From Oscillospiraceae bacterium (GTDB lineage Bacteria; Bacillota; Clostridia; Oscillospirales; Oscillospiraceae), in NCBI GenBank assembly GCA_022846075.1, contig AP025582.1, positions 2,170,001 to 2,234,000 on the forward strand: a DNA stretch of 64,000 nt, written 5' to 3'. Made by a program: the position numbers and the translations under genes. Positions within the stretch are counted from its first letter, which is position 1, and each line of letters begins with the position of its first letter. The notes under the pieces are model-generated. The model made no database searches. It saw only the letters and a program-made list of their open reading frames with translations, and was not told the origin of the DNA. Below are positions 11,911 through 27,838 of the stretch, piece by piece.

Positions 11911-12034
11911 CGGTCCGGTCCGCCTTGAATTTCCGAACAAACAGCAGCAATTTGTTTCCACTCTTCCGATAATGGATGTACCGTTACCCAGTGGGAGAGT
12001 AGTCCTTATGTTTTGTCCGTATGAGCACATCTGG

Positions 12035-12883
12035 CTATGCCCTTGCATATGTGGCATTATTGTATTGAACGGCTAAGTCACTTCCATCTGCAGGCCTTCG
12101 TGAATAGTCATTTGATAGTGATCGTATTAACACTTCTCTTATTTCAGGAGTTGTATTCAAATCGTTTAATTCGTGAATTATTCCGCCAGGAAACCTTTTA
12201 GTTAGCACAAAGACGAATACTGCGCACAATTGAAACACATCTGAATATGTACCGATCAGGTCACTCTGAAAATAGCTACAATCAACAGCCTCTGGACTCA
12301 TCCAAAAGGCGGGACCAACCTTTTCGTTCGGTTTTGTTATTTCTCTGTGTTCCTCCGGATCAAGGAATGTACACAATCCAAAATCACTAATTACCCATGT
12401 TTCGCCTTTGATAAGCACATTCTCTGGTTTGATATCTCTATGGATTGCGACCTTATGAATCTCTGCTAATGCTTCACATAGGCCGCGGAATTGCGCAGCA
12501 TATATCTCATAGGGTACTGACTCAACACTCCGCAGGTAGTCGACAAGATTTCCATCAGCACGCTCCATAATAACAAACGGAAGTTCGATTTCTTGTCCTT
12601 TTCTGTTAACCGTATCAGCCTTTCCCCTATCAACATAACGAATGATATGCGGATGGTTAATGCGCTCCATCAAAGAGACTTCCTGATCAAATCGTTTTTG
12701 GCTTTTGTGAGAAAGCTGGAGAAGAAATTTAACGGCATAAATCGAACCGCTTGAATCAATGCATTCGTACACGGCTCCATTTCCACCAGAACCAATTCGC
12801 TCCTGCAATTCATAACTCTTGCCAGAAGAAGAGATAATTTCGTCGTCTATATCGAAAAACAGATTTTTAAGATATATCGTCAT
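12035..12883 (-). CDS. Serine/threonine protein kinase
   Basis: A 282-aa soluble Hanks-type kinase. It has the glycine loop GSGGNGAVYE (31-40), Lys in YAVKF, catalytic loop HRDIKPENVL (about 150), DFG, and a WMSPEAVD segment in place of the usual APE. No transmembrane or PASTA part, so it acts in the cytoplasm. The ATG at 12883 has AAGAAGG upstream and lies 17 bases inside the end of the DUF262 gene: the two are coupled. It is the last gene of the putative phosphorothioation operon. I infer a signalling or effector role in defence. Confidence 0.9.
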   Translation of the reverse strand: MTIYLKNLFFDIDDEIISSSGKSYELQERIGSGGNGAVYECIDSSGSIYAVKFLLQLSHKSQKRFDQEVSLMERINHPHIIRYVDRGKADTVNRKGQEIELPFVIMERADGNLVDYLRSVESVPYEIYAAQFRGLCEALAEIHKVAIHRDIKPENVLIKGETWVISDFGLCTFLDPEEHREITKPNEKVGPAFWMSPEAVDCSYFQSDLIGTYSDVFQLCAVFVFVLTKRFPGGIIHELNDLNTTPEIREVLIRSLSNDYSRRPADGSDLAVQYNNATYARA

Positions 12884-13907
12884 ATTCTGCCTTCTTCCCA
12901 TATGCAGGCGATAACCGCTCCTTCAAAAAGTCCACTCTCCATTCTCTATTAGAGATGGAATTTGCATCACTCAGGCACCGAGTAGCATATTCTCGATACA
13001 AATCATCGTCACTTTGCGGACCAATATTATCACACATTTCTCGCAGAATTTCTCTGGTCCTCTCCAAATTTTCACAATTTAAAACAGCCTCTTTGCGTAA
13101 TTCGAATATACAGGCAAACAGAGAATAGAAGTCAGATTTCTGCTTGAATCTTGTATCTTTCATCGGGAATTCTTCTGCATCAAAGATAAGTGCGATATCG
13201 TCAATAATGCCAGTAAAAATATCAACGATGTCTGCTTGATTATCAAGCTGCATATATTCCTCGCATACCGCATCCAAATAATCTTTCTTGTCCTGAATTC
13301 CTTTGAGAATGATTGTGAGCAATTCCTCAATGTACTCTACATCAAGCATTCTTCTGCGCTGCTTTACAGAGAAAATCTTTGCCTTTTCGAAGAACTTGTT
13401 TTCAGACAGCTCTTCTGCGAGGTGTATAAAGTCTCCAGGAAAATCGGCACGGCGGAGCTCTTGCTTATTCAGCTGCACAGTGTACTTATTCACACGAGAA
13501 TACAAATCTCGAATCTCTTCGTCAGTGGGATTGAAAATTTCATTAATGTCAATCTTATATCGCAGGATCTGATTCTGTACTTCGGGCGGGAGCTCCGAAA
13601 ACTTTTTATCCTGGTGCTCGCCTATATATGGTTTTTTAAGCGCAAGCTTATTTTTCACAAACTTAAGAATAGCCGTCAATCGCTGTTGCCCGTCAATAAC
13701 AACGCGATAAGTATTTCCATCCCGGATAATCGATTTAATATACACTTTGGGTATAGGGATCCCTTTAATGATGGTATCAATAAGCATGATTTGTGCTGCG
13801 TTGCTCCAGACCTCATTGCGCTGGAAATCCGGTCTTAGTTCTAAGCGGTAACTATCATTCCAGTCGCGCACATCAGATATTGGATGTGAGTATGATTCCC
13901 ATTGCAT
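12867..13907 (-). CDS. DUF262 domain protein
   Basis: A 346-aa protein whose first 160 residues are a DUF262 (ParB/Srx-like) domain: LRPDFQRNEVW, then VIDGQQRLTAI with the DGQQR nucleotide-site motif, and RVNKYTVQLNKQELR. In GmrSD and SspE the DUF262 NTPase is joined to a DUF1524 HNH nuclease; here I see no HNH motif in the C-terminal half, so it may sense or hydrolyse nucleotide and pass a signal to a partner. It overlaps the kinase gene. Position in a phosphorothioation-like operon makes a PT-sensing role plausible but unproven. Confidence 0.8.
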   Translation of the reverse strand: MQWESYSHPISDVRDWNDSYRLELRPDFQRNEVWSNAAQIMLIDTIIKGIPIPKVYIKSIIRDGNTYRVVIDGQQRLTAILKFVKNKLALKKPYIGEHQDKKFSELPPEVQNQILRYKIDINEIFNPTDEEIRDLYSRVNKYTVQLNKQELRRADFPGDFIHLAEELSENKFFEKAKIFSVKQRRRMLDVEYIEELLTIILKGIQDKKDYLDAVCEEYMQLDNQADIVDIFTGIIDDIALIFDAEEFPMKDTRFKQKSDFYSLFACIFELRKEAVLNCENLERTREILREMCDNIGPQSDDDLYREYATRCLSDANSISNREWRVDFLKERLSPAYGKKAEYDDIS

Positions 13908-13938
13908 AATTTCAACCCTTTCTTTGTGAGAATATGTT

Positions 13939-15051
13939 TCAACTCCAAAAATCCTTCAATTTCTTGGCTTTGCTGGGGTGTCCAAGTTTCCTAAGTGCTT
14001 TTGCTTCGATTTGTCGTATGCGCTCTCGTGTGACTCCATATATCGCACCTACATCTTCAAGCGTAAGAGGTCGATTATCGTCAAACCCAGTTCTAAGGCG
14101 TATAACATCAGCTTCTTTGGGAGTCAGCGAACTAAGTGCATTCAAAAGAGTGTTTCTGGCCATTGAGGCGGCAGCTTTTTCAAACAGAAAATCATCGGCC
14201 TGCATAAGCTCCTGCGGCCAAGGCAGAGACTCTTCGCAGTCATTTTCTTCAAAGTAATCAGAAAGGTACAGATGATTCTCGGCTTGCTTGATTGCTGCTG
14301 CGAGGTACTCGTTTGCTTCCTCAAAAGATATCTCTAAGCTATCTGCGATTTCAGAAACAAGGGTTTCACAAATTCTACCGGGTACGCAATCACCACACCA
14401 GTGGTTAAGGTAGCGTTCGTAAGCCGGAAGCATTTTTTCTTTATAGTGAGCAGGAAAATAATACTCCATCCAGATAGGATTGCATTCCCTGTTAATATTC
14501 TGCTGGATCCACAAAGACGCATACGACTGGAATGCCGAAAATCCATCCGGATTAAATCTATCGACAGCAACAATTAAACCTACGAATCCAGCAGAAACTG
14601 CATCGGCAATATCATATTGGTGTGATTTTGCCATTGAAAGCGCAATCTTCAATACAACTCGTAAATGAATGAGTATTAGCCGTTCCCTGGCGAATGTGTT
14701 TCCTGCAGCAATCTGAGCGGTAAGCGCAGATATTTCGCCATACTGAGGCGGAGGCAATTTTTTAATAAGCTCAACAATATATTTAAGCTCCGGCGATAAT
14801 GAAATTATTTCTTTGAAAACGGCCTCATAATCTATTCGGCTGTAGTCCTCGAAATGAGCAACATCTTTTCCAGAAGGCGTAGTTTCATAAATTATGATTC
14901 CGCGTATTTCGAGGGCCTCGCTCAGTTGATCTACTTCAGATACTGACAGAGAGTGGGCGTCCGACAAGTCCATGACATCGCCGAAAGTCAAAAAGCCTTT
15001 TTTCTCTGACTCAGCGATTAGCTGTTTTTGGCAGTCTGCAACTTTAGACAT
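13939..15051 (-). CDS. Sigma-70-family factor inside defence operon
   Basis: A 370-aa sigma factor. An N-terminal region like sigma 1.1 (FLTFGDVMDL then VDQLSEALEIRGI) precedes region 2 (about 110-200, with FQSYASLWIQQNINRE) and region 4 (about 300-370, with LTPKEADVIRLR and GVTRERIRQIEAKALRKLG). Region 4.2 is nearly that of RpoD, whereas region 2.4 is much altered, so a normal -35 but a different -10 may be read. I chose ATG 15051 over GTG 15060 for spacing to GGGAGGT. Cotranscribed with the Ssp-like genes; perhaps a switch for alternative transcription upon attack. Confidence 0.85.
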   Translation of the reverse strand: MSKVADCQKQLIAESEKKGFLTFGDVMDLSDAHSLSVSEVDQLSEALEIRGIIIYETTPSGKDVAHFEDYSRIDYEAVFKEIISLSPELKYIVELIKKLPPPQYGEISALTAQIAAGNTFARERLILIHLRVVLKIALSMAKSHQYDIADAVSAGFVGLIVAVDRFNPDGFSAFQSYASLWIQQNINRECNPIWMEYYFPAHYKEKMLPAYERYLNHWCGDCVPGRICETLVSEIADSLEISFEEANEYLAAAIKQAENHLYLSDYFEENDCEESLPWPQELMQADDFLFEKAAASMARNTLLNALSSLTPKEADVIRLRTGFDDNRPLTLEDVGAIYGVTRERIRQIEAKALRKLGHPSKAKKLKDFWS

Positions 15052-15083
15052 CCCGGACACCTCCCGTCTTCAGAGCCTATATC

Positions 15084-15611
15084 TTATTCGGCATTAGCTC
15101 GACACAGGTCCAGGATATCTTTGCTGGTAATGCCTTCATTAAATCTTTCGTTGAATTCCTCTATGAAGTCATACATACGGTTAATGTATTCAGCGGGATC
15201 TGTTGCCCCGTCAACGAACTTTTCATACAAAACCTCAACGCCGCCAAGTACATAAGCATCAAAGAGCTGCAAGTCAGCTTCATCTGCACCAAAGTGCCGG
15301 AAAGCCTTATCTAAGCGCGCGTCCGCATTCGGCTCATGCTGACTATCCAATATGAGAATAAGTCGGAAGATATATTCCAGTTGCTCGGAGTTGTTTATAA
15401 GCTGCTCTGGGAAGATGTTTTGATCCGCAATAGCTCCATTAGAGTTTTTGATTCCCTTTCGTTTGAAAAGGAATCCAATCAAGGGCGCATTCATGTAAAC
15501 ATCCAGATTGCGCTCAAAGAGCTTCGCCTTTGCAACATCGTCAAAAATAGATGTCAATGCACTAACTTTTTCTGCATGGTTTCCTGTAAAACGATACTGT
15601 TTTTCAAACAT
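15084..15611 (-). CDS. Hypothetical protein of defence operon
   Basis: A 175-aa, mostly helical acidic protein that I do not recognise. It has a repeated pattern of charged and hydrophobic residues, no Cys cluster, and no signal peptide. AAGGGGGTG precedes the ATG. It begins 12 bases after the SMC-like gene and ends 32 bases before the sigma factor gene, so it is in the same transcript. It could be a small partner of the SMC-like ATPase. Confidence 0.65.
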   Translation of the reverse strand: MFEKQYRFTGNHAEKVSALTSIFDDVAKAKLFERNLDVYMNAPLIGFLFKRKGIKNSNGAIADQNIFPEQLINNSEQLEYIFRLILILDSQHEPNADARLDKAFRHFGADEADLQLFDAYVLGGVEVLYEKFVDGATDPAEYINRMYDFIEEFNERFNEGITSKDILDLCRANAE

Positions 15612-15623
15612 GATGACACCCCC

Positions 15624-17606
15624 TTATACCAGACGAGTATGGAACTCGTCGATTTTTTCAAAGTAATGACGAGTCATTACTTTTGTGCCGAGGTGTTCTT
15701 CTGCCAGTTCACCATCTGTATCTTTGATAAAGATGATAACCTGTTCCGCAGTTTCAGGAATGGCAGAACAAATCGCCTTGATTCTACGCTTATCAAAAGC
15801 GGACAGCGGAGCATCCATGACAAGAGGATAAGGCTCAGAGTATGCTTCGTCACCATTCTCAAGCTGATTTTCTCTTGCCATTTTGATGATAGCAGAGATA
15901 AACGCAAAAATAACAGAGATGCTCTGGGCGGTAGATGTTTCGACTCCACCATCAAAATCAGTTACATAGACCGAAATATTGTAATGATCATCAATAGTGA
16001 GAGACAAGCCACCATCATAAATGGACTTAAAAATCTCATTGATGTACATCTGCAGCTTTGCTCTAATCTGTGCTTCCTTTTGCTTGTACTCCGTGTTTAA
16101 CTCATCATAAATTCTCTGAGTGTAGGCTTTGTACAGCTCAATCATCTGATTGTTTTTGTCCAAGAGGGAAAGTTCGGACCGGCTATTTTCTTTCTGCTTC
16201 TTCTCCTCTTCAAACGCCCCCTGCTTACGAAGCAATTGCTGCTGCTCAGTCCTGCGCTTGGAAATCGTATCTGCACAAGCACGGATCTGGGTGTTCAACT
16301 TCTTAACCTGTTCCCGAACATCATCACCATCAAGTTTTTCACTGATAACGGCCAGCTGTTCTTCGAGGTCCGCTATGGATTCTTCTTGCTGGCTAATCAA
16401 GCCGACCTGCTCAGCAATATCCTGATACAAGGAAACTTCTCTGCTGTATTTAGAACGAGAGTCCTTTATAAATTGGCCGACCGTCACACCAATAGACTGC
16501 GGCGGCAGGTAATCCATCAACTCCATGACCTTGTTGTAAGGGATGGTGCCAGGATCAAGATGAGTTCCGCAAATGCATGTGCCGCGCTTCAGCAAAAATT
16601 CAATTGTTTTCGAATGCATCTCCGGGATATCTTTTCCGCTGAAATCGCTGTGAGAAAGAACTTCCAGCGCTCTATGGGCAAGTGAAAGCGAGAAAAACGC
16701 AGTCATTCTATCATTGAATTTCTTGCAACTTTCTTTAATAAACTGCGCTTTAAGTTTTTTGAGGTTTTGAAGTTCTACGGTCAAGCGATCCCGTTCATTT
16801 TGCAGTTTTTCGCCATCGGCATATTGTTTGATGTCTTGTTCAAACTTAGCTTTTGCAGAAGATGCCGCATCAATCTCATCGTCGATTTCAACCAAGCGCT
16901 TGGTGATTCTTTCAAGCTCATTCTGGAGTTCTTCAATACGCTTAGAAAGCTGCTGGATTCTGTCACAACTATCTCCGGTATAAGCCTCGTTGAATTTTCC
17001 CATAACGGAATTAGTTCTTGTAGGCGCAAGATGTCCCAGTGCGGCTAATGTAGCTTTTAATCCGGTTAGTCCCACCACCGCATTTGAGAAACCACTACTT
17101 TTTCTTCCACTGGCGATCTCCTTACTCATTTTTTCGATGCGCTCACCATCAAAGAAGAAGTAATTCGAAAGCTCCTTGGGGAGAATTTTTTTGATTTCAA
17201 CCTCACATTCAAGCTGTTTCAAATAGCGGGTATTACCATCTGCAGATTTGACCGCAATGTTTAATACTGTGTTTGTTCCAGTAACTTTGTTGCTATAGGA
17301 TTTCTTATATTCTTGTGTCCGGACGATTTCATAAGTTGCGCTGCCGTGAGTGAGCTTGAGTACAACTTTAACGGTAATTTTTTGATCTGGCGTCATCTGC
17401 TCGGCAAGAACCCTATTGAGCATGATCTTATCGGTAAAATCTGTTTCACCATAGAGGCACCAGAAAAACGCCTGTGCAAAGGTGGTTTTGCCTGTTCCAT
17501 TTTCGCCAATAATGAGAGTAACATTTCGTTCAGAATCGGTGGAGAAATCTATCTTTTCGTTGATGAACTGTCGAAAGTTCTGCAATTCTATTGATTGGAG
17601 CAGCAT
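15624..17606 (-). CDS. DndD/SMC-like ATPase
   Basis: A 660-aa RecN/Rad50-type ATPase. Walker A is GENGTGKTT (34-42); two long coiled coils flank a central CICGTH hook-like Cys pair (about 350), and the C-terminal half has the Walker B VMDAPLSAFDKRR. FFFDGERI near 160 is typical of DndD. Such proteins act on DNA in phosphorothioation systems or in the linked restriction module. The ATG at 17606 has GAGGAGG upstream and overlaps a 56-aa gene by 19 bases. Name not assigned because DndD and SspH-like roles cannot be separated by eye. Confidence 0.85.
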   Translation of the reverse strand: MLLQSIELQNFRQFINEKIDFSTDSERNVTLIIGENGTGKTTFAQAFFWCLYGETDFTDKIMLNRVLAEQMTPDQKITVKVVLKLTHGSATYEIVRTQEYKKSYSNKVTGTNTVLNIAVKSADGNTRYLKQLECEVEIKKILPKELSNYFFFDGERIEKMSKEIASGRKSSGFSNAVVGLTGLKATLAALGHLAPTRTNSVMGKFNEAYTGDSCDRIQQLSKRIEELQNELERITKRLVEIDDEIDAASSAKAKFEQDIKQYADGEKLQNERDRLTVELQNLKKLKAQFIKESCKKFNDRMTAFFSLSLAHRALEVLSHSDFSGKDIPEMHSKTIEFLLKRGTCICGTHLDPGTIPYNKVMELMDYLPPQSIGVTVGQFIKDSRSKYSREVSLYQDIAEQVGLISQQEESIADLEEQLAVISEKLDGDDVREQVKKLNTQIRACADTISKRRTEQQQLLRKQGAFEEEKKQKENSRSELSLLDKNNQMIELYKAYTQRIYDELNTEYKQKEAQIRAKLQMYINEIFKSIYDGGLSLTIDDHYNISVYVTDFDGGVETSTAQSISVIFAFISAIIKMARENQLENGDEAYSEPYPLVMDAPLSAFDKRRIKAICSAIPETAEQVIIFIKDTDGELAEEHLGTKVMTRHYFEKIDEFHTRLV

Positions 17607-17758
17607 TGAACTTCCTCCTCTATCCACTTCTTAATGTCCCGAATCATTTGAGCGTCCGTCTTATTTTTAGTGCGCAAATTAGTATTCTCGGCAATAACAA
17701 TCTTCCGTTTCAGTCGATTGATTGCCTTCCAATCGAGGTCAGACTTCGATGTCTCCAT
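17588..17758 (-). CDS. Small protein between helicase and SMC genes
   Basis: A 56-aa basic-then-acidic helical protein (KAINRLKRKIVIAE, then KWIEEEVQCCSNQ). The ATG at 17758 follows AAGGAGG exactly and lies 20 bases inside the helicase end; the stop lies 19 bases inside the SMC gene. The double overlap with a strong ribosome site argues it is real and made in balance with both neighbours. Probably a small bridging subunit; no family recognised. Confidence 0.65.
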   Translation of the reverse strand: METSKSDLDWKAINRLKRKIVIAENTNLRTKNKTDAQMIRDIKKWIEEEVQCCSNQ

Positions 17759-19970
17759 ATGGGTCCTCCTTTTCATCATTGTTCAAATCGTAGGGCAATC
17801 CATAACAGTCACAGATTTCCCAGATTAATTGAGAGGCTTCCATAGAGTTCATAGACAACCGCCCGAACTCCAACACTCTCGCCAATTCATTTTTTACCAG
17901 GGCCAAATCTCGTCGCATTTGTTCTTCTGTTAAGCCAGATACTTCGTCTAAAGGACGTGGCAAAGTCACAAAATCATAAATTTCTGCAAACTCTTTACCT
18001 GTCTCAGGAGATTTTCTCAACACACGGCCTCGGCGCTGAATGTACTCTTTAGGATTGGTAGTGCTTGCCAAAATAAAAGCGGTGCGAATGCCGGGAATAT
18101 TTACGCCTTCATCCAAACACTTGATAGCAACGATGGCCTGTAGATCGTCGCCGTCTTTGAAGTGCTGTTTTATGGCGTTACGCTCGTCGATGTTCTCTTC
18201 TGCTGTAAATTTAGATACTTTCATGCCTAATTCGTTGCCAAGTATCCGGGTTACAGCTTCAATTTGCTTAATGTCACCCTCGTCTACATCTGAGTTGTCG
18301 GCGTTTGGAGGTAACACATTTGTTGCGCCACAGTATACCAAAAGGAAATGCTCGTCCTTATATGGAGCAATGACTTCTTTAAGGCGAACAAGCTTGAGCG
18401 CTGCGGCTGCGACTATGCGGGAACGTTGGATTGCCAGCATTTCGCCATAGCTATCCAACTTGACCTTACCGCCTCGACTTTTGATTACATGACGAGATAT
18501 TTCGAAGGATAGTTGCTCATACTTTTCAAGTTCTTCGTCGTTCAGATAAGCAAGGATAGGATAGTATTTGTAAGGTGTAAGTTTCTCTTCTTCAATTGCT
18601 CGTTCAAGGCTATACTCAATACACTTTTTCCCGAAGAAGCCATAAAGAGTAGCGGTGCCTTCCTCGTCACGATGCCGTTCCAATGTAGCAGACAAAGCAA
18701 GCCGATAGGTAAATCGTTCATCTAACAGCTTTGCATAGCTTCGTGCGCCAAAATTGTGCGCCTCGTCTACCACCAGAAGAACGGGGCTTTTTATCTTCCC
18801 AATCTGCTCCTGGACAAAGCTGTTTGCAAAAGTAGCATTCGTGCAAATGAAGCAGAAAAAGCGTTTCTCGCTCCTGAGCTTTTGATCTCGAACAGCCTTA
18901 GATAATCGCTTTTTCCAGTCTTTTTGGGACGAGCTGCTGTAACCGATGATTGGCTGAATATTGAACTTTACAATATCATCTACCCATTGCTCCACCAGGT
19001 GCTGATATGGACAAACGATGATAACGGCAAGCTCGTCATTTAAGTCCTCCGATATTTTTGAAATAGCACCTAAACCTGTAAATGTCTTTCCGGTACCGGT
19101 TGCCATATCAAAAATGCCGCAATAATTTTCGCCTACCCATGCAGAGATAGCTTGTTTCTGATAATCATGCAGGGTTATGTTCTGGGGGATTCTTGCTCCA
19201 ACTGCACCGTGATCTTCCGGAAGCGCAGACAAGCCTCGTTGGCCTTCTTTTCGGGGAGGGAATTGTTCCTCGTCGATGTTGAAGTTTGGTGCTTTCTTTC
19301 TGTATTTCTCAATCAGGGCGTCCGTTATCTTTGGGAACTCCAAAACTCGAATACTTGGCTCACAGTCACTCCAGATAGAATAAAAAGCGTTTTCTTTTAA
19401 TTGAACACGGTCACGCTCTCCTCCGTCGTACCAACTACGAAACACATCGATGGTTTCATAATTCAGAGACATTGCAGTAGAGGATTCATTCATCGAACCA
19501 GAAAAAGCAACTTTGTTGCCATCAGAATCTTCGATAATGCCCATCTTTTCGTGGTACATTCCGATTCCTTTGGCATCCTCTGTATAGGCAATCCGGATAT
19601 CCAAAACACCATTAGCAATAAGATTTGCTAAAAGATTAAGGCGTTCCATGGAATAATAATCCGTATGTTCATCGGACAACTGTCCTAACAGAGCTGCCTC
19701 GATTACCTCATCACGATCTGCATATCCTTTTTTGATTGCTTCGATGTCATCGTCGGACAGATAGGGGGAAGCTACAATCTGAATCCTCCCGCCCCGACTG
19801 GCCAAATCAGCAATGCCTTTCGATATCTCAATCAGAGAAAACGAAGAAAAAAATCCCACCGCTCGCTTGTAGGATACGGCTTCATTGAGCAAGGGAACAT
19901 AGAATTTCTGCACCACATTGTCAATTAGAGAGCGATATTCAGTTTTTATGGCATGTTCCTGAAAACTCAT
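17739..19970 (-). CDS. PLD-domain SF2 helicase
   Basis: A 743-aa protein. The first 200 residues are a phospholipase D-like domain (IQIVASPYLS; one HxK-like motif in YHEKMGIIEDSDGN). Then comes an SF2 helicase: motif I MATGTGKTFTGL, DEAH in VVDEAHNFG, SATLERH, and the C-terminal EGVNIPG and QRRGRVLR. Such fusions act in DNA-degrading or restriction roles in defence islands. GAGGAG precedes the ATG. It is followed by overlapping small and SMC genes; the three resemble the restriction half (SspFGH-like) of a phosphorothioation system, by inference. Confidence 0.9.
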   Translation of the reverse strand: MSFQEHAIKTEYRSLIDNVVQKFYVPLLNEAVSYKRAVGFFSSFSLIEISKGIADLASRGGRIQIVASPYLSDDDIEAIKKGYADRDEVIEAALLGQLSDEHTDYYSMERLNLLANLIANGVLDIRIAYTEDAKGIGMYHEKMGIIEDSDGNKVAFSGSMNESSTAMSLNYETIDVFRSWYDGGERDRVQLKENAFYSIWSDCEPSIRVLEFPKITDALIEKYRKKAPNFNIDEEQFPPRKEGQRGLSALPEDHGAVGARIPQNITLHDYQKQAISAWVGENYCGIFDMATGTGKTFTGLGAISKISEDLNDELAVIIVCPYQHLVEQWVDDIVKFNIQPIIGYSSSSQKDWKKRLSKAVRDQKLRSEKRFFCFICTNATFANSFVQEQIGKIKSPVLLVVDEAHNFGARSYAKLLDERFTYRLALSATLERHRDEEGTATLYGFFGKKCIEYSLERAIEEEKLTPYKYYPILAYLNDEELEKYEQLSFEISRHVIKSRGGKVKLDSYGEMLAIQRSRIVAAAALKLVRLKEVIAPYKDEHFLLVYCGATNVLPPNADNSDVDEGDIKQIEAVTRILGNELGMKVSKFTAEENIDERNAIKQHFKDGDDLQAIVAIKCLDEGVNIPGIRTAFILASTTNPKEYIQRRGRVLRKSPETGKEFAEIYDFVTLPRPLDEVSGLTEEQMRRDLALVKNELARVLEFGRLSMNSMEASQLIWEICDCYGLPYDLNNDEKEDPYGDIEV

Positions 19971-19982
19971 ATATTGCTCTCC

Positions 19983-21128
19983 TCACATGTTTTCTTCGAT
20001 GTAATCGAGGGCTTGTTGAAGCTCCTCGAAATCGTCTTCTGAGGTAAAGTAGCTCACGCTAAAACGAATCGTTCCAGCTGGATATGTTCCTACAAATTGA
20101 TGTGCAAGGGGGGCACACTGCAGACCAGTTCTAACAGCAACGCCATAACGGTTAAAAATCTCTCCGGCACTATCACTGCTAATACCTTCAATCAAGCAGG
20201 AAACAATCCCCACATAATTGCAATCAGGATGATCACCAACAATTTTAATAAACCAATATTCTTGCAGAATCGCTATCAATTTGCTTCGGTGCTCTTGCTC
20301 TTTTTGCCAGATTGCTTCGATTCCCTGGTCTAACCCCCATTTTAGAGCTGCGTTCAACCCAGCAATGCCAGAGATATTCATTGTTCCCATTTCATATCGC
20401 TCAGGCAGGCTTTGAGGCATATTCTGATTAGCGGACTCAAAGCCGGTCCCGCCGAAGATAATCGGGGGCAAATCAATTGTAGGATCCATAATGAAACCAG
20501 AAATCCCCGTGGGGCCGTACAGGGTTTTGTGCCCTGCAAATACTGCGAAGTCAAACACATTGAGACCCAGATTACAATCTACAAGCCCCGCAGTCTGCGC
20601 CATATCGATCACAGTAGTTGCGCCGAACTTTTTTGCTAACGAGCAGATTTCAGTTACGGGCGCAATTAATCCAACCACATTACTCGCATGACTCACAATT
20701 ACTAAATCCGGACGCTTTGCTTCAAACTGATATCTTATTCTATCCAGATCATATTTCAATTCATGAGAAACAGTGAGTTGATGGACAGAAATAGTACCCG
20801 TTTCCTCGAAACGATGCAAAGTCCGGGTTACTGCATTGTGTTCAAACGGACTGATATATATGGTTTTGATGCCTTTACAAATCAGCCCCTGAATAATAAT
20901 ATTTAATGCTATCGTCGCGGTGGGCGTAAAAACGACTTGCTTTGCGGGACAGTGCATAAGTTCTTGTACCAATGCCCTGGTTTCACCAATCAGGGCATTG
21001 GCACCCTGTGCGAGGTTATAACGGCCTCTCCCTGCGTTGGCACCGTTCAATCTATAAAACTGGTCCATACTGGCATAGACAACCTCTGGCTTGGGATAGG
21101 TTGTCGCCGCATTATCGAAGTAGGCCAT
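19983..21128 (-). CDS. Cysteine desulfurase (SspA-like)
   Basis: A 381-aa PLP enzyme that moves sulfur from cysteine. The opening YFDNAATTYPKP, the PLP Lys in GHKTLYGPTG, and catalytic Cys in RTGLQCAPLAH mark the NifS/IscS class. I chose ATG 21128 with GGAGGG before it. There are no Fe-S scaffold genes near; it sits between the ATPase and the helicase and downstream of a DndC-like gene, so sulfur probably goes to DNA phosphorothioation (SspA or DndA role). Confidence 0.9.
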   Translation of the reverse strand: MAYFDNAATTYPKPEVVYASMDQFYRLNGANAGRGRYNLAQGANALIGETRALVQELMHCPAKQVVFTPTATIALNIIIQGLICKGIKTIYISPFEHNAVTRTLHRFEETGTISVHQLTVSHELKYDLDRIRYQFEAKRPDLVIVSHASNVVGLIAPVTEICSLAKKFGATTVIDMAQTAGLVDCNLGLNVFDFAVFAGHKTLYGPTGISGFIMDPTIDLPPIIFGGTGFESANQNMPQSLPERYEMGTMNISGIAGLNAALKWGLDQGIEAIWQKEQEHRSKLIAILQEYWFIKIVGDHPDCNYVGIVSCLIEGISSDSAGEIFNRYGVAVRTGLQCAPLAHQFVGTYPAGTIRFSVSYFTSEDDFEELQQALDYIEENM

Positions 21129-21139
21129 TATTATCCCTC

Positions 21140-24100
21140 CTAACACAATTCTTTCAGTATATCCATGATGATTTGTCGTTTTTCCTGCTCGGAGATAGAC
21201 TGTCCCATGGAATCTAATGCATCCGTGACCTGATTGAACAAGAGCTCACCTCGCTTACTATAGTCAATGCGAGAAAACCGCTTTGTAACAGCCTGACCAT
21301 TCTCGCCGACAAAGGTAACCTGATAAGCATCTGCCACCACTTCTTCTTGCGCAGCATCTGCGTTCTGGTACGCTTCTGCGGTTGTCTTATATTTTTTTAC
21401 ATTGGTAACAAAATGTTCGTATGTGCTACCGTCCCAGTCCTCCAAGCGAAGGTCTGTAGCTGTTTTGGCAAGGCGGGCAATGAGTGTTTCCTCGTCGTTC
21501 GTTGCCGTTTTAAACAGGCCGAGACACTTTTCCGTGCCATCGGTAAATAACTGCTCAAAAACCCTTTCGTCAAGACTCTCACACCAGTCCTTGATTACAG
21601 ATGTAAGCGAAGCAGCTTTAAGACTATTGGGGTTCTGCGTTGTAAAAAAGATTTCTTTTACTGTTTGAATAAGATCTTTTTTAAGCTGCACTATGCAATG
21701 ATCGTAGTATTTCTTTGCGGCGGTGATATTTTCTGCCAAACCAATGCTGAACTGGTTTGCATAGTCGAAAGCCGTTGGAAGCTTGTCGAACAACAATTCA
21801 TGCCCACCGGTGCTGTTCTTTAACAACCGTAGCATAGCTAAGTAGCGTTTATCAACCTTTTGGCCTTTTACGCTGCGCTTGAGCTCCTTAGCATATTTAG
21901 GCAATGCCATATACCAACGTTTCATCGCAGACACTACATAATCATAGGCGTTAACCAATTTTTCGGCCTCGATTATGTAATCAGAGAATATATCTGCAAG
22001 TAGCTGGATAAACTCTGCCTTTTCAGGATCCCAGTCCAAAGACGCTAAAGTAAATCCTTCTGGGTTAGCATTTACTTGAAGCAATGTATCAGCAGTAATG
22101 GGAACTTGTCCAAATTTATCTTGCAGAATCAGTTCTTGCTTAAATTCATGGAACACGGCGGCTAAATAAATAGGGATAAGCCCTTTTCGCAAACCAATGT
22201 GGTTTTCGGGAGCTACCAGACGACGGTACAACACGCCAAAAGACATGTTACCAGATGCTTTGGTTTCCTGAATGAATCCAGCGATGGTAGCTAACATATT
22301 TCCAATTAGCTCGTTATTCGGATTTAAATTAATTCGAACAAGCGCACTGTCTGTTACAAGAACTCCAGTCCTTATGAGTGTGCTTCTCATAATAGAAACT
22401 TCCTGTCCGGAGCCCGCCAACCCAAGGTTATGTTCCAACTCGTTTCTGAGCAGACCTGCAATAATTTTATTTCTGCTGTTGTTAGCAATAGAGGTAATGT
22501 CATTACGATTAATTGCTTCGTTATTGATGACCGGAGTGAGCGAATACACATCATCACAAATATCCGATAGCAAACCTGTAAGCGCTGCTTTTCGAGTAAT
22601 CGGTTTCTCCTCGCCCATGTAAATGTAAGTGGACTTAAAACTTTCCGGGTGCGTATAAGTGCCTATGAAGTCGGAAATTACTTCACGAAGATCTTCATAT
22701 ACGACTTCATATTCATCAAACAGAACCTTGTCTCCAGAGGCTTGTTCTCTCAGCAATGAAACAGCATTGAATTCTTGGATAATCTCGGTAATTTCTTTAT
22801 ACTTTTTGGGTAGGATGAAAAGAAAACGTTGATGGCCGGCGCTGGACTGAATCAGTGCGTCACGAAGGTGGTTGATGGATTCATCGCTTTTAGGAATAAC
22901 ACCATACACAACACCATCCGCATCGATTGACTCACTCTTCATAGTCCAGTCGACATCAGGACGAACCTCACCTTCGTCAATAAACTCAAAAGAGAAATAG
23001 CGAGTCATCTCTCGCGCGCCATTATAACGAGAAGGATAAATATAGTTGTCAAAGTTCGAAGCGTTCAAAGTCGCTTTTGTTGAAACCTTTCCTGCCAACG
23101 CTGCAACGGCATCATGGATCTTTTGTCCGATATCAACGCCCGAGGTTTGCTTTAGACGCAAATAATCGTTGCTTCTCTTTAAGTAAACAACATATTCTTT
23201 CTCAATTAGATTGGCGATTGCTTCCTCAATCTCTTCAACAGTATAATTGATAGAAAAGATGCCCACAATCTCGTCCTTAGTTGGCTTTAGCTTTTCAAAC
23301 TGCTCCAAAATATAAATGAGAGACAGCGTTTTTACAATTTTACTTTCCAAGGATTCATGTTGAAGTTTTGGCAGAATAGCTGTAGTCAGTAAATATGTTT
23401 GATGGATTTCGCTGGTATAAATCTCTTTTCTAAACAGCGGCTCAAAGTAATCGTAAATTTCATCCGGAGTGATCACATCAAAACATTGATCATCATAGCC
23501 TGCAAGGAATTCTGGCAATGTAGAGGTGCCCATTGCAGACAAGAAAGTAAACAATGTTCTTTCGTTTTGGGCAACACGCTCAGAAAGTCTCGGCAGAACA
23601 AATGTCGAAACAGGATGAAGCGGATAGCAGGAGTAGAGAATATGTTTTAAATCCTTCCTTGTAGCATCAGCGAAAATCGCATGGTTTGCATAGCGATGTT
23701 TTACGCTATCAAACTCTCCTTTATGCTGCTGGCAAAATTCTGCCCAAAGAGCGGCGTCTTTTTGAATAACAGATGCAATGATTTCATAGGTTTGAGCAAA
23801 GTTGTTGTTGAGGTGGACATGTTTAAAACGTTCAGATACTCCTCGCCAGCCATCGACTTTCTGTTTGGGTAAAGTATCGATATAGTTGGAAATTTCTTTG
23901 TGAGAAATCAGCATCAAGTGAATTTGGTTCTCACCGCTGCGATTGCATTTTTCGGCAAAATCCTGGAGCATTTTTGTATCGCTAACAGATGCCTCAGAGA
24001 TATTTGCCTCTAAGAACTTGCTGAATTCATCATAAACGACGTAAATACCAGTATATCCTTTTGAACGCAATCCTCGAACAGCGCTTTCGTACAGTTCTAC

Positions 24101-24754
24101 AACGTCAAAGCCAAGAAAGGGACTGAATACGCTACCAGCGGTCAGCGTAGGGTAAATTCGTTCGAATTTCTCATATGCAGTAATGTTATAGTCTTCAAGA
24201 TCTTCAATGAACTTTCCAAGAGGTTCATCAATTGCCTTTTGCAACTGAATATAGGTATCTGGGAAATCAGTTTTCCATCGTTGAAGCACCGCAACAGCAG
24301 CTTTGTAGTTGGTCTCCGGCATAATATCCAGCAGCTCATTTTCTGCCAATGTTCTCTGAAGTGCCAGGAGAAAAGCCTGCGGAAGACTGGTGTTGCTGCC
24401 ATTAATAATCACAGGAAGAAGCTTTTGGTCGCTTTCATAATAACTTAACACACATTGATGAAGTCTCTTATTACCCTCCAGTTTGGGCAGAAGCTTTTCA
24501 AACAAGGAAATGTCCTTTTTCATCAGCATGGAAAGAATCATCAAAATAATATGCGATTTTCCCTTGCCATAGGCACCAATTAAGACCCGAGCCCTTTCAG
24601 TAGATGTAATCCGGGTACTCAAAAGAATGTCCTCAAGAAGAGTAAGTGCCGATTGAGTCGGTATGAAATTTTTGAGTTTATCATCATTGTTCAGGTCATA
24701 TCCGATATTCACAGAATACTGAAAACCCGAAGCAACAGAAATCATGTTACTCAT
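21140..24754 (-). CDS. Large P-loop ATPase (SspC-like)
   Basis: A 1204-aa protein. Walker A GAYGKGKSH lies at 60-68 and a Walker B-like IYVVYDEFSKFLE near 240. The rest is long, helical and without other motifs I can name. Large ATPases of this kind (SspC, and the related BREX-type ATPases) accompany the PP-loop and DUF4007 proteins in single-strand phosphorothioation loci. AGGAGAA precedes the ATG and the gap to the DUF4007 gene is 18 bases. SspC assignment is by context; BrxC/PglY relatives are the main alternative. Confidence 0.75.
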   Translation of the reverse strand: MSNMISVASGFQYSVNIGYDLNNDDKLKNFIPTQSALTLLEDILLSTRITSTERARVLIGAYGKGKSHIILMILSMLMKKDISLFEKLLPKLEGNKRLHQCVLSYYESDQKLLPVIINGSNTSLPQAFLLALQRTLAENELLDIMPETNYKAAVAVLQRWKTDFPDTYIQLQKAIDEPLGKFIEDLEDYNITAYEKFERIYPTLTAGSVFSPFLGFDVVELYESAVRGLRSKGYTGIYVVYDEFSKFLEANISEASVSDTKMLQDFAEKCNRSGENQIHLMLISHKEISNYIDTLPKQKVDGWRGVSERFKHVHLNNNFAQTYEIIASVIQKDAALWAEFCQQHKGEFDSVKHRYANHAIFADATRKDLKHILYSCYPLHPVSTFVLPRLSERVAQNERTLFTFLSAMGTSTLPEFLAGYDDQCFDVITPDEIYDYFEPLFRKEIYTSEIHQTYLLTTAILPKLQHESLESKIVKTLSLIYILEQFEKLKPTKDEIVGIFSINYTVEEIEEAIANLIEKEYVVYLKRSNDYLRLKQTSGVDIGQKIHDAVAALAGKVSTKATLNASNFDNYIYPSRYNGAREMTRYFSFEFIDEGEVRPDVDWTMKSESIDADGVVYGVIPKSDESINHLRDALIQSSAGHQRFLFILPKKYKEITEIIQEFNAVSLLREQASGDKVLFDEYEVVYEDLREVISDFIGTYTHPESFKSTYIYMGEEKPITRKAALTGLLSDICDDVYSLTPVINNEAINRNDITSIANNSRNKIIAGLLRNELEHNLGLAGSGQEVSIMRSTLIRTGVLVTDSALVRINLNPNNELIGNMLATIAGFIQETKASGNMSFGVLYRRLVAPENHIGLRKGLIPIYLAAVFHEFKQELILQDKFGQVPITADTLLQVNANPEGFTLASLDWDPEKAEFIQLLADIFSDYIIEAEKLVNAYDYVVSAMKRWYMALPKYAKELKRSVKGQKVDKRYLAMLRLLKNSTGGHELLFDKLPTAFDYANQFSIGLAENITAAKKYYDHCIVQLKKDLIQTVKEIFFTTQNPNSLKAASLTSVIKDWCESLDERVFEQLFTDGTEKCLGLFKTATNDEETLIARLAKTATDLRLEDWDGSTYEHFVTNVKKYKTTAEAYQNADAAQEEVVADAYQVTFVGENGQAVTKRFSRIDYSKRGELLFNQVTDALDSMGQSISEQEKRQIIMDILKELC

Positions 24755-24772
24755 TTCCGTTTTCTCCTAATC

Positions 24773-25663
24773 TTACTCTTCAATACTTGCGTAATACATA
24801 TCTACGCATTCTTCGAAAGTGCGTTGATTGCTTAGCCGGACAATATCCAAGCCAGCCGTTCTAATAATTTTGATTTCGCCAGTTTTTTCTACTCGATGGA
24901 GTATATCGAGCATAGTAATGGCATCAAGGTTAAAAATGCGGCCAATATTGCACGGAGCGGTCAGAAGTTCATTTAGTGCGATTTCTTCTCTACCCGTTAC
25001 TTGATCCTCGATAACCGCCAGAATAACCCATGGACTAAAGCTTTTTGCTGCTGGGATTGACTTTTTATAAGTGCGTTTTTCTTTACTTAAAATATCGATG
25101 AACCCCAGCTCTCCGAACGGGCAGTCTATATTATTTTCGGGAGAAATCTTTCCGGGGGTTGATTTGTATCTTGGCAAGTAGGTATTTACGATACATGCAA
25201 AATCATCATTGAGGGAACGGATAGCAACGGAAACATCTTCGTCACTCATTAGCACATAGCTTTGTAACGCCGAAACAAAATCCTCTTTTGTGAATTCGGT
25301 CATTTTGAACTCATTGAAAAAGTAATACCATGCAGTTGCTTCCTCGCTATTAGAGGCTAATTTATAATGCAAAAGATGGAGAGTTCCGAGTTCCTCAATG
25401 TATCGGTCGTGCTCATAGATTTGATTACCCAGGTCCGTAAAAGTTTGAACTCGTCGTCCAGTTGTGGGTTCCTGAGTCACCCCAACAGCCTGCAGCCAAT
25501 AGCGCAATGCCTTTACCATGTTTGTACCGATACCAAGCACATCAGTTGGGTTTTCATCCCGAGAAACAAAGACATCAGCTTTATTATGAACATGTTTCAT
25601 GCCCTTGCTTAGCCAACCTTTTCTTATGAAAAATGTATCATGGGCACGAAATTTCATAGCCAT
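24773..25663 (-). CDS. DUF4007 protein (SspB-like)
   Basis: A 296-aa protein of the DUF4007 type, recognised by the opening FRAHDTFFIRKGWLSKG, the DPTDVLGIG-like GIGTNMVKALRYWL segment and a C-terminal wHTH-like end. DUF4007 proteins accompany DndC/SspD genes; SspB of the Ssp system is described as a DNA nickase. AGGAGGT precedes the ATG region. It lies 21 bases after the PP-loop gene and 18 before the large ATPase, as in ssp loci. Confidence 0.75.
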   Translation of the reverse strand: MAMKFRAHDTFFIRKGWLSKGMKHVHNKADVFVSRDENPTDVLGIGTNMVKALRYWLQAVGVTQEPTTGRRVQTFTDLGNQIYEHDRYIEELGTLHLLHYKLASNSEEATAWYYFFNEFKMTEFTKEDFVSALQSYVLMSDEDVSVAIRSLNDDFACIVNTYLPRYKSTPGKISPENNIDCPFGELGFIDILSKEKRTYKKSIPAAKSFSPWVILAVIEDQVTGREEIALNELLTAPCNIGRIFNLDAITMLDILHRVEKTGEIKIIRTAGLDIVRLSNQRTFEECVDMYYASIEE

Positions 25664-25684
25664 CGGTACATACCTCCAAATGTC

Positions 25685-27400
25685 TTACTTCGTTCTTAGA
25701 TATTTATCCATCATGCAACCGCCATCCAAGTACTTAGCGGTAACACACATTTTGCAGCGAACACATTTATCGGGATTAATATAATAACTATCACCAACGA
25801 TAGAAATAGCACCCGCCCGACAGAGCGATTCGCATTTTAAGCATTTACGGCAAGCGTTGAATTTTCGGATTTGATATCCAATCATGCGTTGCAAAGACTC
25901 ATGATCCGCAACATTCATAGTTCTTACTTTTACAGAATGCTTATATCCATCTTGGCCAAACGGCTGAATGGAAATGATTGGTACATTGGTCTTGGGCTCA
26001 AGAACTAAAACCTCATTCAGTAGCTTTTGACCTAATTCTGGGGCAACTCTCCCGAATGGAGTAAACATACCAATTAAATCGTCATCTAACGGACGCACCA
26101 AACTGTAGATCTTTGCATGATCTTCCGTAGTACAATTTGTAAACCGAATTTTTACATCGCCAGCTGCCACCAAACCATTTCCACCTTGACGGGCTTTCCA
26201 TTTTCCGGTATCGACATATACTTCAGCATCCGGTTTGCCAATTTTTTGGGCAAAGGAAATGAGGAACTCTCTCCATTTTTTAGACTGCTTTGGCATATAA
26301 ATTCTGGATAAAAACTGCGCACGCTGGTTGTTGTTTGGACAACACCAGCAGCCAACACGATCGTATCCCAATCTATAAGCATCGTTAAAGTCCACTTCTT
26401 CGGACAGAATATACAGCCAAATATCAAAATCTTTCCAAAAGAAGATAGGGGAGGCCACTGTTTGCTGCTGAATCTTGACGGATTCGGCATCATCTTCGAT
26501 TCGGTTATACTTGCTTCGGCTCACAGACTCTGCCTTTCTTATTCCATAAAAGGTCAGAATCTGCTGGTTGCGATACAAACTGTTAATAACCCTTGTAATA
26601 GGTCCAGTCTTAAACATGGAGCAGCACCAACGCATCATTCTTGCCGGTGGACCGATATCTTCGCAAACATCGTAGAATACTTGTTCTCTATTTTTGGCGA
26701 TCTGGAAAATTGCAAGAGGGTGGTCTCTTCTGTATCTTGATGCATACTCGATTGTTGCCGGAAATTCTAATGTTGTATCGCCAAAAATATGAACTAAGCT
26801 CGGATTACTTAGGGCCTTTATGACGATATCCGCTGTTACTGTAGAATCCTTGCCGCCAGAAAACGACAGCACAATATGTTCTTCATCAAATTTCTCTGCT
26901 GCCTTTTTGATAAACGCGTGAGCTTCATCCTTAAGATAGTGTAGTCTTAATTGATTTGCGCTGATAAATCGAGCAATATGCTTCTCAAAGTACTCGTAAG
27001 TGTTCTGGCCTTTATACTGTTCAAGCTTTTGGGATAAAGCATCGGCATCAGTTTCTTGGAAAGTTTTGCTTGAGATTGAAATAGATTTTCCGTTGATATA
27101 ATACCGACTATTTGCTGCCCATACAGACTTTTCAATATAGGTAAACGGCTCCTCATCCAAAAGCAGTTCGAGCAACAACCGTTCCTCTGGAAATACAGGC
27201 CGCAGGTCCGCAGAAAGATACTTCATTTTTCTTGTGCACAGAGGACAAAGCCCTTTGTCTGCCTGAGTTGCTACTTGAATAATCGGGACTTCACAATGAG
27301 CACACCAATATACTTCGGTAGGGAAATCTTCAATTGTTATAGAGCCACAAACCGGGCAAATCTTTTCATTTGTTTCAATATTGCAGGTGTTGCACCACAT
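25685..27400 (-). CDS. DndC/SspD-like PP-loop protein with Fe-S cysteines
   Basis: A 571-aa PAPS-reductase-family protein. The N-terminus has zinc-ribbon pairs (CNTC, CPVCG, CAHC, CPLC); the PP-loop SFSGGKDS lies near 180; GCWCCPNNN and MRWCCS supply Cys in the catalytic half; the C-terminus has ferredoxin-like Cys runs (CRKCLKCESLC, CVRCKMC). DndC/SspD activates DNA by ATP hydrolysis for sulfur insertion. GGAGAA precedes the ATG. It is the first structural gene after the XRE regulator. Closest function: phosphorothioation; related tRNA or CysH proteins are less likely given the neighbours. Confidence 0.85.
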   Translation of the reverse strand: MWCNTCNIETNEKICPVCGSITIEDFPTEVYWCAHCEVPIIQVATQADKGLCPLCTRKMKYLSADLRPVFPEERLLLELLLDEEPFTYIEKSVWAANSRYYINGKSISISSKTFQETDADALSQKLEQYKGQNTYEYFEKHIARFISANQLRLHYLKDEAHAFIKKAAEKFDEEHIVLSFSGGKDSTVTADIVIKALSNPSLVHIFGDTTLEFPATIEYASRYRRDHPLAIFQIAKNREQVFYDVCEDIGPPARMMRWCCSMFKTGPITRVINSLYRNQQILTFYGIRKAESVSRSKYNRIEDDAESVKIQQQTVASPIFFWKDFDIWLYILSEEVDFNDAYRLGYDRVGCWCCPNNNQRAQFLSRIYMPKQSKKWREFLISFAQKIGKPDAEVYVDTGKWKARQGGNGLVAAGDVKIRFTNCTTEDHAKIYSLVRPLDDDLIGMFTPFGRVAPELGQKLLNEVLVLEPKTNVPIISIQPFGQDGYKHSVKVRTMNVADHESLQRMIGYQIRKFNACRKCLKCESLCRAGAISIVGDSYYINPDKCVRCKMCVTAKYLDGGCMMDKYLRTK

Positions 27401-27451
27401 TTTGAGATTCTCCTATGCTTTTATGCTTTAGTCTATACTGTGCCTATCTTG

Positions 27452-27479
27452 ATTGTAGCATACCTGATGTCCATTAAAC
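27452..27479 (-). promoter_or_regulatory. Possible promoter before the DndC-like gene
   Basis: On the minus strand, GTTTAA, a 16-base spacer and TACAAT (27452-27457) preceded by TGC, an extended -10. It lies between the XRE regulator stop and the first structural gene, so the operon may be transcribed separately from the regulator. Confidence 0.4.
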
Positions 27480-27489
27480 CGTACAGATG

Positions 27490-27702
27490 CTATACCTCCG
27501 CATCTGGCATAATTTCCATAATGTCCTCTACACCACAATCCAGTGCAGTGCAAATCTTCAGAAGAATTTCCGTGGTGACATGACCGTTCCGACCCATCTT
27601 AGTAACGGATGCCGGGCTAATGCCTGCCTTTGCACATAGATCCTTCTTCTTCATATCTTTATCAATAAGCAATTTCCAGAGTTTTTTATAACTCACAGCC
27701 AT
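27490..27702 (-). CDS. XRE-family HTH regulator
   Basis: A 70-aa Cro/C1-type protein: KLLIDKDMKKKDLCAKAGISPASVTKM gives the HTH, followed by LLKICTALDCGVEDIMEI. The ATG at 27702 has GGGAGGAAA upstream. It is the first gene on the strand of the putative phosphorothioation operon, with its own promoter and a dyad at 27785-27804, so probably a repressor that keeps the system in balance. Confidence 0.85.
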   Translation of the reverse strand: MAVSYKKLWKLLIDKDMKKKDLCAKAGISPASVTKMGRNGHVTTEILLKICTALDCGVEDIMEIMPDAEV

Positions 27703-27804: not shown

Positions 27805-27809
27805 TTATA

Positions 27810-27838
27810 ATAATAGCATATCCGGTCGCAGAAAACAA
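27810..27838 (-). promoter_or_regulatory. Promoter of XRE regulator
   Basis: On the minus strand TTGTTT (27833-27838), a 17-base spacer and TATTAT (27810-27815), about 105 bases before the regulator ATG. Confidence 0.55.

Follow-up and report, generated by a model that had tools for sequence, protein, structure and literature searches.

Phosphorothioate (PT) systems have so far been described as a writer of the mark together with a nuclease. In the Ssp family, the writer SspABCD is joined by SspE or by SspFGH, and SspE is a DUF262 domain fused to DUF1524, which senses PT through Y30/Q31 and hydrolyses nucleoside triphosphates (NTP) through a DGQQR motif (PMC9646914). PbeABCD, first described with Dnd writers, stops replication without visible DNA cleavage (PMC6459918), and 2,211 of 2,678 sspBCD loci have been reported as unaccompanied (PMC8092258). 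Kinase domains have been described in DndF and PglW (PMC10853773, PMC12839542), and histidine kinase genes, a different kinase type, stand beside SspE in Acinetobacter (PMC7464106). In the accessible text of the open-access literature searched, no sigma factor and no DUF262-kinase or DUF262-SIR2 pair is assigned to Ssp or Pbe loci. The present study concerns a 64,000-nucleotide stretch of an Oscillospiraceae genome (the window; AP025582.1, positions 2,170,001 to 2,234,000), in which a 15.7-kb island at 12035-27702 carries 12 genes. Our main reading, to which we assign a probability of about 0.55, is that the island is a PT defence locus of three modules: an Ssp writer, a Pbe cassette with its own sigma factor, and a DUF262-kinase pair that resembles SspE in two pieces.

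The identity of the modules, SspDBCA as PT writer, PbeABCD, sigma factor and DUF262-kinase, is almost certain. Hidden Markov model (HMM) searches bear out the families proposed in the initial annotation (SspB/DUF4007, SspC, SspA, PP-loop/PAPS reductase, PLD-helicase, ABC ATPase, sigma-70, DUF262 and Ser/Thr kinase), and matches of SspA, SspB, SspC and SspD to HMM libraries uphold its view of an Ssp-type PT locus. Its gene list was right too, but the PLD-helicase, the 56-aa, SMC-like and 175-aa proteins went unrecognized as the known PbeABCD (PMC6459918, PMC10853773). It had further placed the sigma factor and the kinase outside described systems. This is correct in that the accessible Ssp and Pbe literature names neither this sigma gene nor the DUF262-kinase pair, but kinase domains are known in DndF and PglW, and the island kinase has a mad6 match. 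With SspABCD systems the island shares the SspA, SspB/DUF4007, SspC and SspD writer genes, and with SspE the principle of a DUF262 reader; it differs from the former by an SspD that is BrxP-like with Fe-S-type cysteines, and from the latter by a stand-alone DUF262 followed by a kinase in place of the fused DUF1524. PbeABCD is matched in its PLD-helicase, small protein, CxC ATPase and DndE-like protein, in the same order; the writers joined to Pbe are of the Ssp type here, in place of the Dnd type first described, and a sigma factor follows that the accessible Pbe literature does not mention. From such an island one would expect sulfur marks on its own DNA and an attack on DNA that lacks them.

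The DUF262 gene (GmrSD_N; 12867..13907, minus strand, as are all island genes) encodes a stand-alone protein with FQR and DGQQR motifs (PF03235, 3.5e-21). It has the DUF262 NTPase domain of SspE with its DGQQR motif, and no DUF1524/GmrSD_C, the HNH nickase part, was found in it by Pfam at E 0.1; SspE itself was not found in the island. The Ser/Thr kinase gene (12035..12883; PF00069, 2.6e-32) overlaps the DUF262 gene by 17 bp when read from the start that gives 282 aa (288 aa from the ATG at 12901). The catalytic lysine, HRD and DxG are invariant in nine of nine aligned kinase family members, and FQR..V and DGQQR are retained in all eight aligned members of the DUF262 family.

Compared independently by tblastn with 72,556 plasmid records, DUF262 and kinase returned the identical top four distinct plasmids (five records), namely one of Sphingopyxis, two of Asticcacaulis and one of Pseudanabaena, with identities of 36.8-45.1% for the kinase and 45.8-50.4% for DUF262. 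DUF4007 is present on all four, whereas the whole set of 72,556 records yielded it on 95 (E 1e-3). On the two Asticcacaulis plasmids, the pair faces SspD-SspC-SspB-SspA-DndB, and HMM and BLAST searches found no SspE, SspF/G/H or PbeA/C/D within ~13 kb past DndB and 7.7 kb past DUF262. With no known restriction module found in these stretches, the pair itself is a candidate effector. The Pseudanabaena plasmid has SspB-SspC and a short SspD-like gene, then SspF-SspG-SspH-DUF262-kinase-desulfurase on one strand. The Sphingopyxis locus (NZ_CP009431; L080, L144) is split into halves 38 kb apart with a transposase gene at each broken end: SspF-SspG-SspH-DUF262 is followed by an insertion sequence, and the kinase lies beside SspDCBA after a Tn3 transposase.

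Among 398 Bacillota genomes, this DUF262 occurs at E<=1e-40 in two, that of the window and G317, where the order is SspB-SspC-SspD-PbeA-PbeC-PbeD-DUF262-kinase with a weak SspD match; a search of 391 genomes of the class recovered the window's own copy and no other. Three more pair loci (L022, L049 and L034) come from a scan for PbeA and are in this respect a biased sample. One of them, L034, reads DUF262(part)-kinase-PbeABCD-sigma, and in L022 and L034 the contig breaks off shortly before pbeA or the pair. Pair loci total nine, the window and eight others, in Bacillota, an unclassified isolate, Alphaproteobacteria and Cyanobacteria. All nine have Ssp and/or Pbe genes, seven have DUF4007 on the same record, and the pair accompanies Pbe, SspFGH or neither. 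Judged from these gene neighbourhoods, DUF262-kinase is a separate PT-linked pair, found again next to genes for sulfur marking in distantly related bacteria.

If unrelated defence genes had gathered by chance in a defence island, one would expect tail genes that vary among loci and a rare pair, and both are seen here. In contrast, chance would hardly leave Ssp or Pbe genes at every pair locus, nor would it explain why the best four plasmids out of 72,556 records all belong to the 95 on which DUF4007 was detected; furthermore, two lower-ranked DUF262 relatives that were opened (31.8% in Glutamicibacter, 29.5% in Pseudoalteromonas) have neither a kinase nor PT genes annotated. We consider chance extremely unlikely. 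The initial annotation had itself raised chance as a reading for the event that the families were others or that the last three genes were absent from all related loci; the families are as proposed, and these genes recur.

The role of the pair may be approached from what stands in its place elsewhere. The slot after sigma or pbeD holds DUF262-kinase, an SspE-like gene or a weakly GIY-YIG-like gene with DndB, and other genes in many loci. An SspE-like gene comes immediately after pbeD in L062, L063 and L070 (by Pfam in L062, by HMM in the others); in the full-length SspE-like relatives in L062 and L178, the DUF1524 nuclease part is weak and below the cut-off. Six further DUF4007 plasmids were opened, among which one of Methylibium has a 779-aa SspE-like DUF262 protein (Pfam) and one of Hymenobacter has DUF4007-SspC-SspD-DUF262(345 aa)-SIR2, the DUF262 being 27% identical to that of the window over 205 columns. 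The top-ranked other records for both Hymenobacter genes are two of Sinorhizobium americanum, and in the record opened, DUF262-SIR2 adjoins SspF-SspG-SspH and SspABCD (Hymenobacter/Sinorhizobium stretches L180:11980-19086; L181:10001-15738 with L182:6915-13158). The best matches of the SIR2 proteins are ThsA-type models, and ThsA-type SIR2 relatives are killing effectors. The most economical common denominator is a reader of the DUF262/DndB type whose partner can change. Extended to the whole group, stand-alone DUF262 proteins may be PT readers with swappable effectors (a kinase, a ThsA-like SIR2), SspE being only the fused-nickase form of this wider class, and many Pbe systems may have a SigA-derived sigma factor of their own that would tie expression or targeting to promoters; we hold this wider view tentatively, at somewhat less than even odds.

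Several observations weigh against an effector that reads PT. FQR and DGQQR are general DUF262 motifs, which leaves PT reading by the window DUF262 putative, and a DUF262 profile gave no match among PDB chains up to E 10. The pair is rare (3/65 PbeA loci, 2/29 Bacillota DUF4007 genomes including this one, 5/95 DUF4007 plasmid records), and it is not annotated on the six further DUF4007 plasmids. The presence of DndB in the same slot of related loci favours a regulatory role for the pair. Since DndB is a known PT regulator, this alternative stays alive: a DndB-like DUF262-kinase would sense the state of DNA or nucleotides and tune PT writing or restriction by phosphorylation, avoiding self-damage. 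It would suit the seven related loci with DndB and the weakly GIY-YIG-like gene after sigma (L020, L024, L035, L038, L054, L056 and L071; DndB by Pfam in L020 and L056), and the Pbe or SspFGH module also present in seven of the nine pair loci. Furthermore, DUF262 and DndB presumably both have ParB-type folds. This fold assignment follows in part PMC10952713 and PMC12839542. However, the two Asticcacaulis plasmids combine the pair and a DndB-like gene with no restriction module in the stretches examined, SIR2 substitutes for the kinase in two loci, and SspE-like genes take the position after pbeD in three. On balance, a purely regulatory pair appears unlikely to us, though worth serious attention, and we would put the chances of DUF262-kinase being a PT-dependent effector, as its neighbourhoods suggest, at even.

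The sigma gene (13939..15060) encodes a SigA/RpoD-like protein of 373 aa, and its place among other loci was followed in the PbeA scan. Six peptide patterns from the window PbeA, applied to a species-genome collection, gave 65 loci, in which near relatives are over-represented and many of which are cut by contig ends. Sigma directly follows pbeD in 34 of the 51 loci having at least 1300 bp after pbeD; L017, whose pbeD was not kept by the gene picker, is left out of the 51 though sigma is present. Sigma follows pbeD in 36 loci overall, and in 34 of them the gap measures -22 to 30 bp. L027 has a 185-aa sigma fragment as its first match behind pbeD and then a full-length copy, and in L029 the sigma gene is located upstream of the ssp genes. 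Also in L029 (15009-17097), the genes behind pbeD are a short one and one for a BspA-type protein with leucine-rich repeats; on visual inspection, the beginnings of both look similar to sigma region 1.1.

Pairwise distances of sigma over 28 complete gene sets (the window and 27 loci) correlate with those of PbeA, PbeC and PbeD at Spearman values of 0.81, 0.85 and 0.82, against 0.58-0.62 with the four Ssp proteins, and L031, L039 and L045 retain the Pbe-sigma unit beside strongly diverged Ssp genes. On a quick PbeA tree, the presence of sigma requires 4 changes against 14.0 for shuffled labels, with 0/500 shuffles as low, a count that the relatedness of the loci inflates. The nearest relative, L056 from an uncultured Dysosmobacter metagenome-assembled genome (MAG), is colinear with the window from sspD through sigma (78.6% DNA identity over 27415-14429, 77.4% over 14169-13945), after which the tails differ: L056 has the weakly GIY-YIG-like gene and DndB, the window DUF262-kinase. 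The point just past sigma thus marks a module boundary. Given its position after pbeD and its co-evolution with PbeC and PbeD rather than with Ssp, sigma behaves as a fifth Pbe gene as far as comparative evidence goes. As a separate observation, the DNA alignment of the window with L056 is interrupted in the middle of the sigma gene (14170-14428, ~residues 211-298), with ~77-79% identity to either side of the break.

The initial annotation took the last genes as one relay of the attack. This does not hold up, as sigma goes with Pbe, and DUF262-kinase occurs also with SspFGH or with no known restriction module, and without sigma in the stretches examined of seven of the nine pair loci. The particular relay in which the kinase phosphorylates sigma could draw on the closeness of the two genes in the window and on L034, which also holds both. 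We judge it very unlikely, because in the stretches examined sigma is present in two of the nine pair loci only (window and L034) and the pair is rare; furthermore, of the 36 loci with sigma after pbeD, all but L034 are without the pair, and L056 keeps sigma with another tail.

Whether sigma could act as a transcription factor was judged from its domains and residues. Pfam finds regions 1.1 (5.5e-6), 2 (6.9e-9) and 4 (1.5e-17), the regions of SigA/RpoD, and the family profile aligns from position 4 to 368 along whole SigA (best 7l7b_F, 2e-72). An AlphaFold model has a mean predicted local distance difference test score (pLDDT) of 85.2 and a predicted template modelling score of 0.58. With the RpoD-like match encoded elsewhere in the host genome, the island protein shares only 38% identity (residues 123-372), and a search at E<=1e-90 of the 391 genomes of the class found only the window's own copy, with up to five first-look candidates scored per genome, so that copies may be missed. 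In region 4.2, each position of TRERxRQIE except x is kept in 36-38 of 38 sigma members, and the equivalents of W434, Q437, R441 and H455 in 35, 35, 38 and 36 (E. coli numbering). The D403 equivalent is D or E in 37/38.

Upstream of the XRE regulator gene lies a candidate operon promoter with an extended -10-like pattern, TTG-N17-TGCTATTAT (27810..27838, minus strand), and this pattern occurs upstream of sspD in 15/28 loci with sigma (shuffled mean 1.5). Some points speak against a dedicated transcription factor. The extended -10 pattern was picked post hoc, after inspection of the sequences, and where no sigma follows pbeD it is likewise more frequent than in shuffled sequence (4/17, shuffled 0.9), although this set includes L015, L052 and L053, cut before sigma would be visible, and L029 with its upstream sigma. 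Canonical TTGACA/TATAAT scores show no excess in loci with sigma (8.82 vs 8.74 for shuffles); in loci without sigma they are 9.33 vs 8.85. An extended -10 promoter is equally readable by SigA. Being post hoc and SigA-readable, the pattern shows only that a fitting promoter exists. Furthermore, the Q406 equivalent is Q in only 19/38 sigma members and S or G in 16, and the window protein has S here, so tight binding of RNA polymerase is putative.

These features might instead suit a DNA-reading subunit through which the PbeC-PbeD scanner would find promoters or -35-like sites. Region 4.2 belongs to the best-conserved parts whereas the polymerase-facing Q406 position is kept in half of the members, sigma co-evolves with PbeC and PbeD, and PMC10853773 reports a sigma-related helix-turn-helix inserted in some DndH proteins. 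However, the whole SigA length aligns, including region 1.1, and the D403 equivalent is nearly always acidic; we regard such a subunit as rather unlikely. That sigma is a functional transcription factor serving the Pbe cassette we hold to be moderately more likely than not. A CxxCx4-8C motif is found in 24 of the 38 sigma members (14 with a fourth cysteine), mostly after region 2, and the host's own RpoD-like protein is without it; it is a possible metal site.

The four Pbe genes were all identified, PbeB by position and size. PbeA (17739..19970) combines a PLD (HKD) nuclease-like part with an SF2 helicase (PLDc_2, ResIII and Helicase_C in Pfam) and matches PADLOC PbeA at 3.2e-243; the domain match to TIGR04095 (3.4e-148) scores 494 bits, under the model's cut-off of 600 bits. 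PbeB (17588..17758) is the 56-aa protein between pbeA and pbeC. It had no match in the HMM libraries scanned, and its assignment rests on position, size and recurrence, with family HMM matches in 57/65 PbeA loci. PbeC (15624..17606, a 667-aa ORF; PADLOC PbeC, 1.5e-109) is a CxC-type coiled-coil ABC ATPase with Walker A at residue 41 and CIC at residue 351. PbeD (15084..15611) is a 175-aa DndE-like protein, which itself had no family match in the HMM libraries, including the PADLOC PbeD model; four of the 29 members of its family match that model, the best at 3.4e-5. In its AlphaFold model (pLDDT 91.6), Foldseek places DndE structures at ranks 1, 2, 4 and 9 of 98 PDB matches, although these fold matches are weak (best E 0.86). 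Corresponding described sizes are 66 aa for PbeB and 152 aa for PbeD (Xiong et al. 2019, PMC6459918), and Rakesh et al. 2024 (PMC10853773) consider PbeD a cognate of DndE and PbeC a CxC ABC ATPase. An orphan status of the 175-aa gene was rejected in favour of PbeD/DndE by family and weak fold match, and its identity as a DndE-like PbeD is supported by these matches, though not strongly.

The writer genes SspA desulfurase, SspB DUF4007, SspC ATPase and SspD PP-loop protein all lie in one operon. SspD (25685..27400) is a PP-loop/PAPS-reductase sulfurtransferase (PAPS_reduct, 2.7e-31) that in PADLOC matches BrxP (1.9e-79, 266 bits) better than SspD (8.3e-13, 47 bits); it has N-terminal CxxC pairs and C-terminal 4Fe-4S-type cysteines, with Fer4 matches below cut-off. 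SspB (24773..25663) matches DUF4007 (PF13182, 4.7e-84) and PADLOC SspB (1.5e-60), the 1204-aa ATPase SspC (21140..24754) matches PADLOC SspC (3.2e-132) with Walker A GAYGKGKS at residue 60, and the cysteine desulfurase SspA (19983..21128) matches TIGR01977 (8.4e-128) and PADLOC SspA (4e-41). Ahead of them, an XRE/Cro-type regulator (27490..27702; 70 aa from the ATG at 27702) matches Pfam HTH_26 at 2.8e-19. In the 65 PbeA loci, HMM matches number 17 for XRE, 50 for SspD, 53 for SspB, 58 for SspC, 56 for SspA, 60 for PbeC, 59 for PbeD and 38 for sigma.

An even draw of 398 Bacillota genomes contains DUF4007 in 29. The 28 further DUF4007 loci have a PbeA of more than 600 aa in ten, a stand-alone DUF262-kinase pair in one, and long kinase-matching proteins (851-1524 aa) beside SspBCD in five (L115, L116, L123, L135 and L137). 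The three of these five that were scanned with PADLOC (L116, L123 and L135) match both kinase and SspF, and two of them, scanned with Pfam as well, have NERD and two stretches of kinase, the design described for DndF and PglW, along with a region resembling STAND. Binning errors may lie behind MAG loci assigned to Methanobrevibacter, Thermoguttaceae, Bacteroides etc., and phylum-level claims therefore rest on the complete plasmids. A search of viral contigs for the DUF262 family gave 44 stretches that fit a sequence pattern, none of them a relative, and the kinase matched 22 phage records, with 24-30% identity in the best 10 of 22.

The island also resembles other defence systems in part. BREX type 4 (BrxP, BrxC-like, PglZ, BrxL) has in common with it a BrxP-like PAPS reductase with Fe-S-type cysteines, DUF4007 and a BrxC/SspC-type ATPase, and was rejected as its identity, with no PglZ or BrxL among the matches listed for the island proteins. 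MADS, PglW, DndF and PD-T4-6 have defence-linked Ser/Thr kinases, and the best PADLOC match of the island kinase is mad6 of the MADS model, the next PD-T4-6; it differs from them as a single-domain protein of 282 aa with a DUF262 partner and no NERD/STAND fusion. MADS was likewise rejected, as among the matches listed the kinase alone fits and no island gene is a methyltransferase by its best matches. MZA offers a precedent for a sigma-70-type protein within a defence locus (MzaA), in contrast to which the island sigma resembles SigA over its full length and belongs with Pbe, and no other MZA protein is among the matches listed. SspF, SspG and SspH are absent from the PADLOC matches listed for the ten island proteins from SspD to DUF262 and for the kinase.

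All 12 open reading frames (ORFs) were confirmed on the minus strand. The AT-richer, tightly packed block outlined in the initial annotation, with gaps of 11-32 bases or overlaps, is confirmed in ORFs, strand and composition (GC per kilobase 0.40-0.45 against 0.52-0.62 in 3 kb on each side); its gaps are 11-31 bp or overlaps, but 89 bp between XRE and sspD. Purine-rich stretches like ribosome-binding sites precede most of the 12 start codons. The host genome is a single contig of 3.23 Mb. Among 15 other genomes of the same genus, no convincing relative of PbeA was found (a single match at E 9.2e-4), which together with the low GC fits a recent horizontal gain; the island was probably acquired horizontally. 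No exact direct repeats of at least 13 bp are shared between its ends (11000-12100 vs 27400-28900), and no empty site was found in the 15 genomes, where the island flanks align only piecemeal. In the right flank, a ~45-bp stretch (29918-29962) is 79-89% identical in five other same-genus genomes and resembles a dispersed repeat.

For PT writing, phage resistance, the use of the mark to tell self from non-self, and the regulatory and effector steps, we infer the following course. SspA desulfurase would hand sulfur to SspD, SspB would nick the DNA and SspC drive sulfur insertion, leaving the host DNA marked. PbeC-PbeD would scan DNA, and the PLD-helicase PbeA, restrained by PbeB, would attack or stall unmarked DNA. 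The sigma factor, as a dedicated Pbe transcription factor reading an extended -10/-35 promoter, would have the operon expressed or boosted on need. DUF262 would read the PT state and hydrolyse NTP like the N-terminal half of SspE, controlling a separate Ser/Thr kinase instead of a fused DUF1524 nickase, and the kinase would phosphorylate a target of the cell or the phage, so that replication stops.

If true, the Pbe sigma factor, together with a PT-linked sensor in which a kinase or SIR2 takes the place of the nickase, would connect the marking of the DNA backbone with transcription and with immunity that acts through proteins. PT marks would then trigger signalling or abortive-infection immunity, and not DNA nicking only. 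This bears on how Pbe halts replication without visible cleavage, and on which effectors the unaccompanied sspBCD loci may use.

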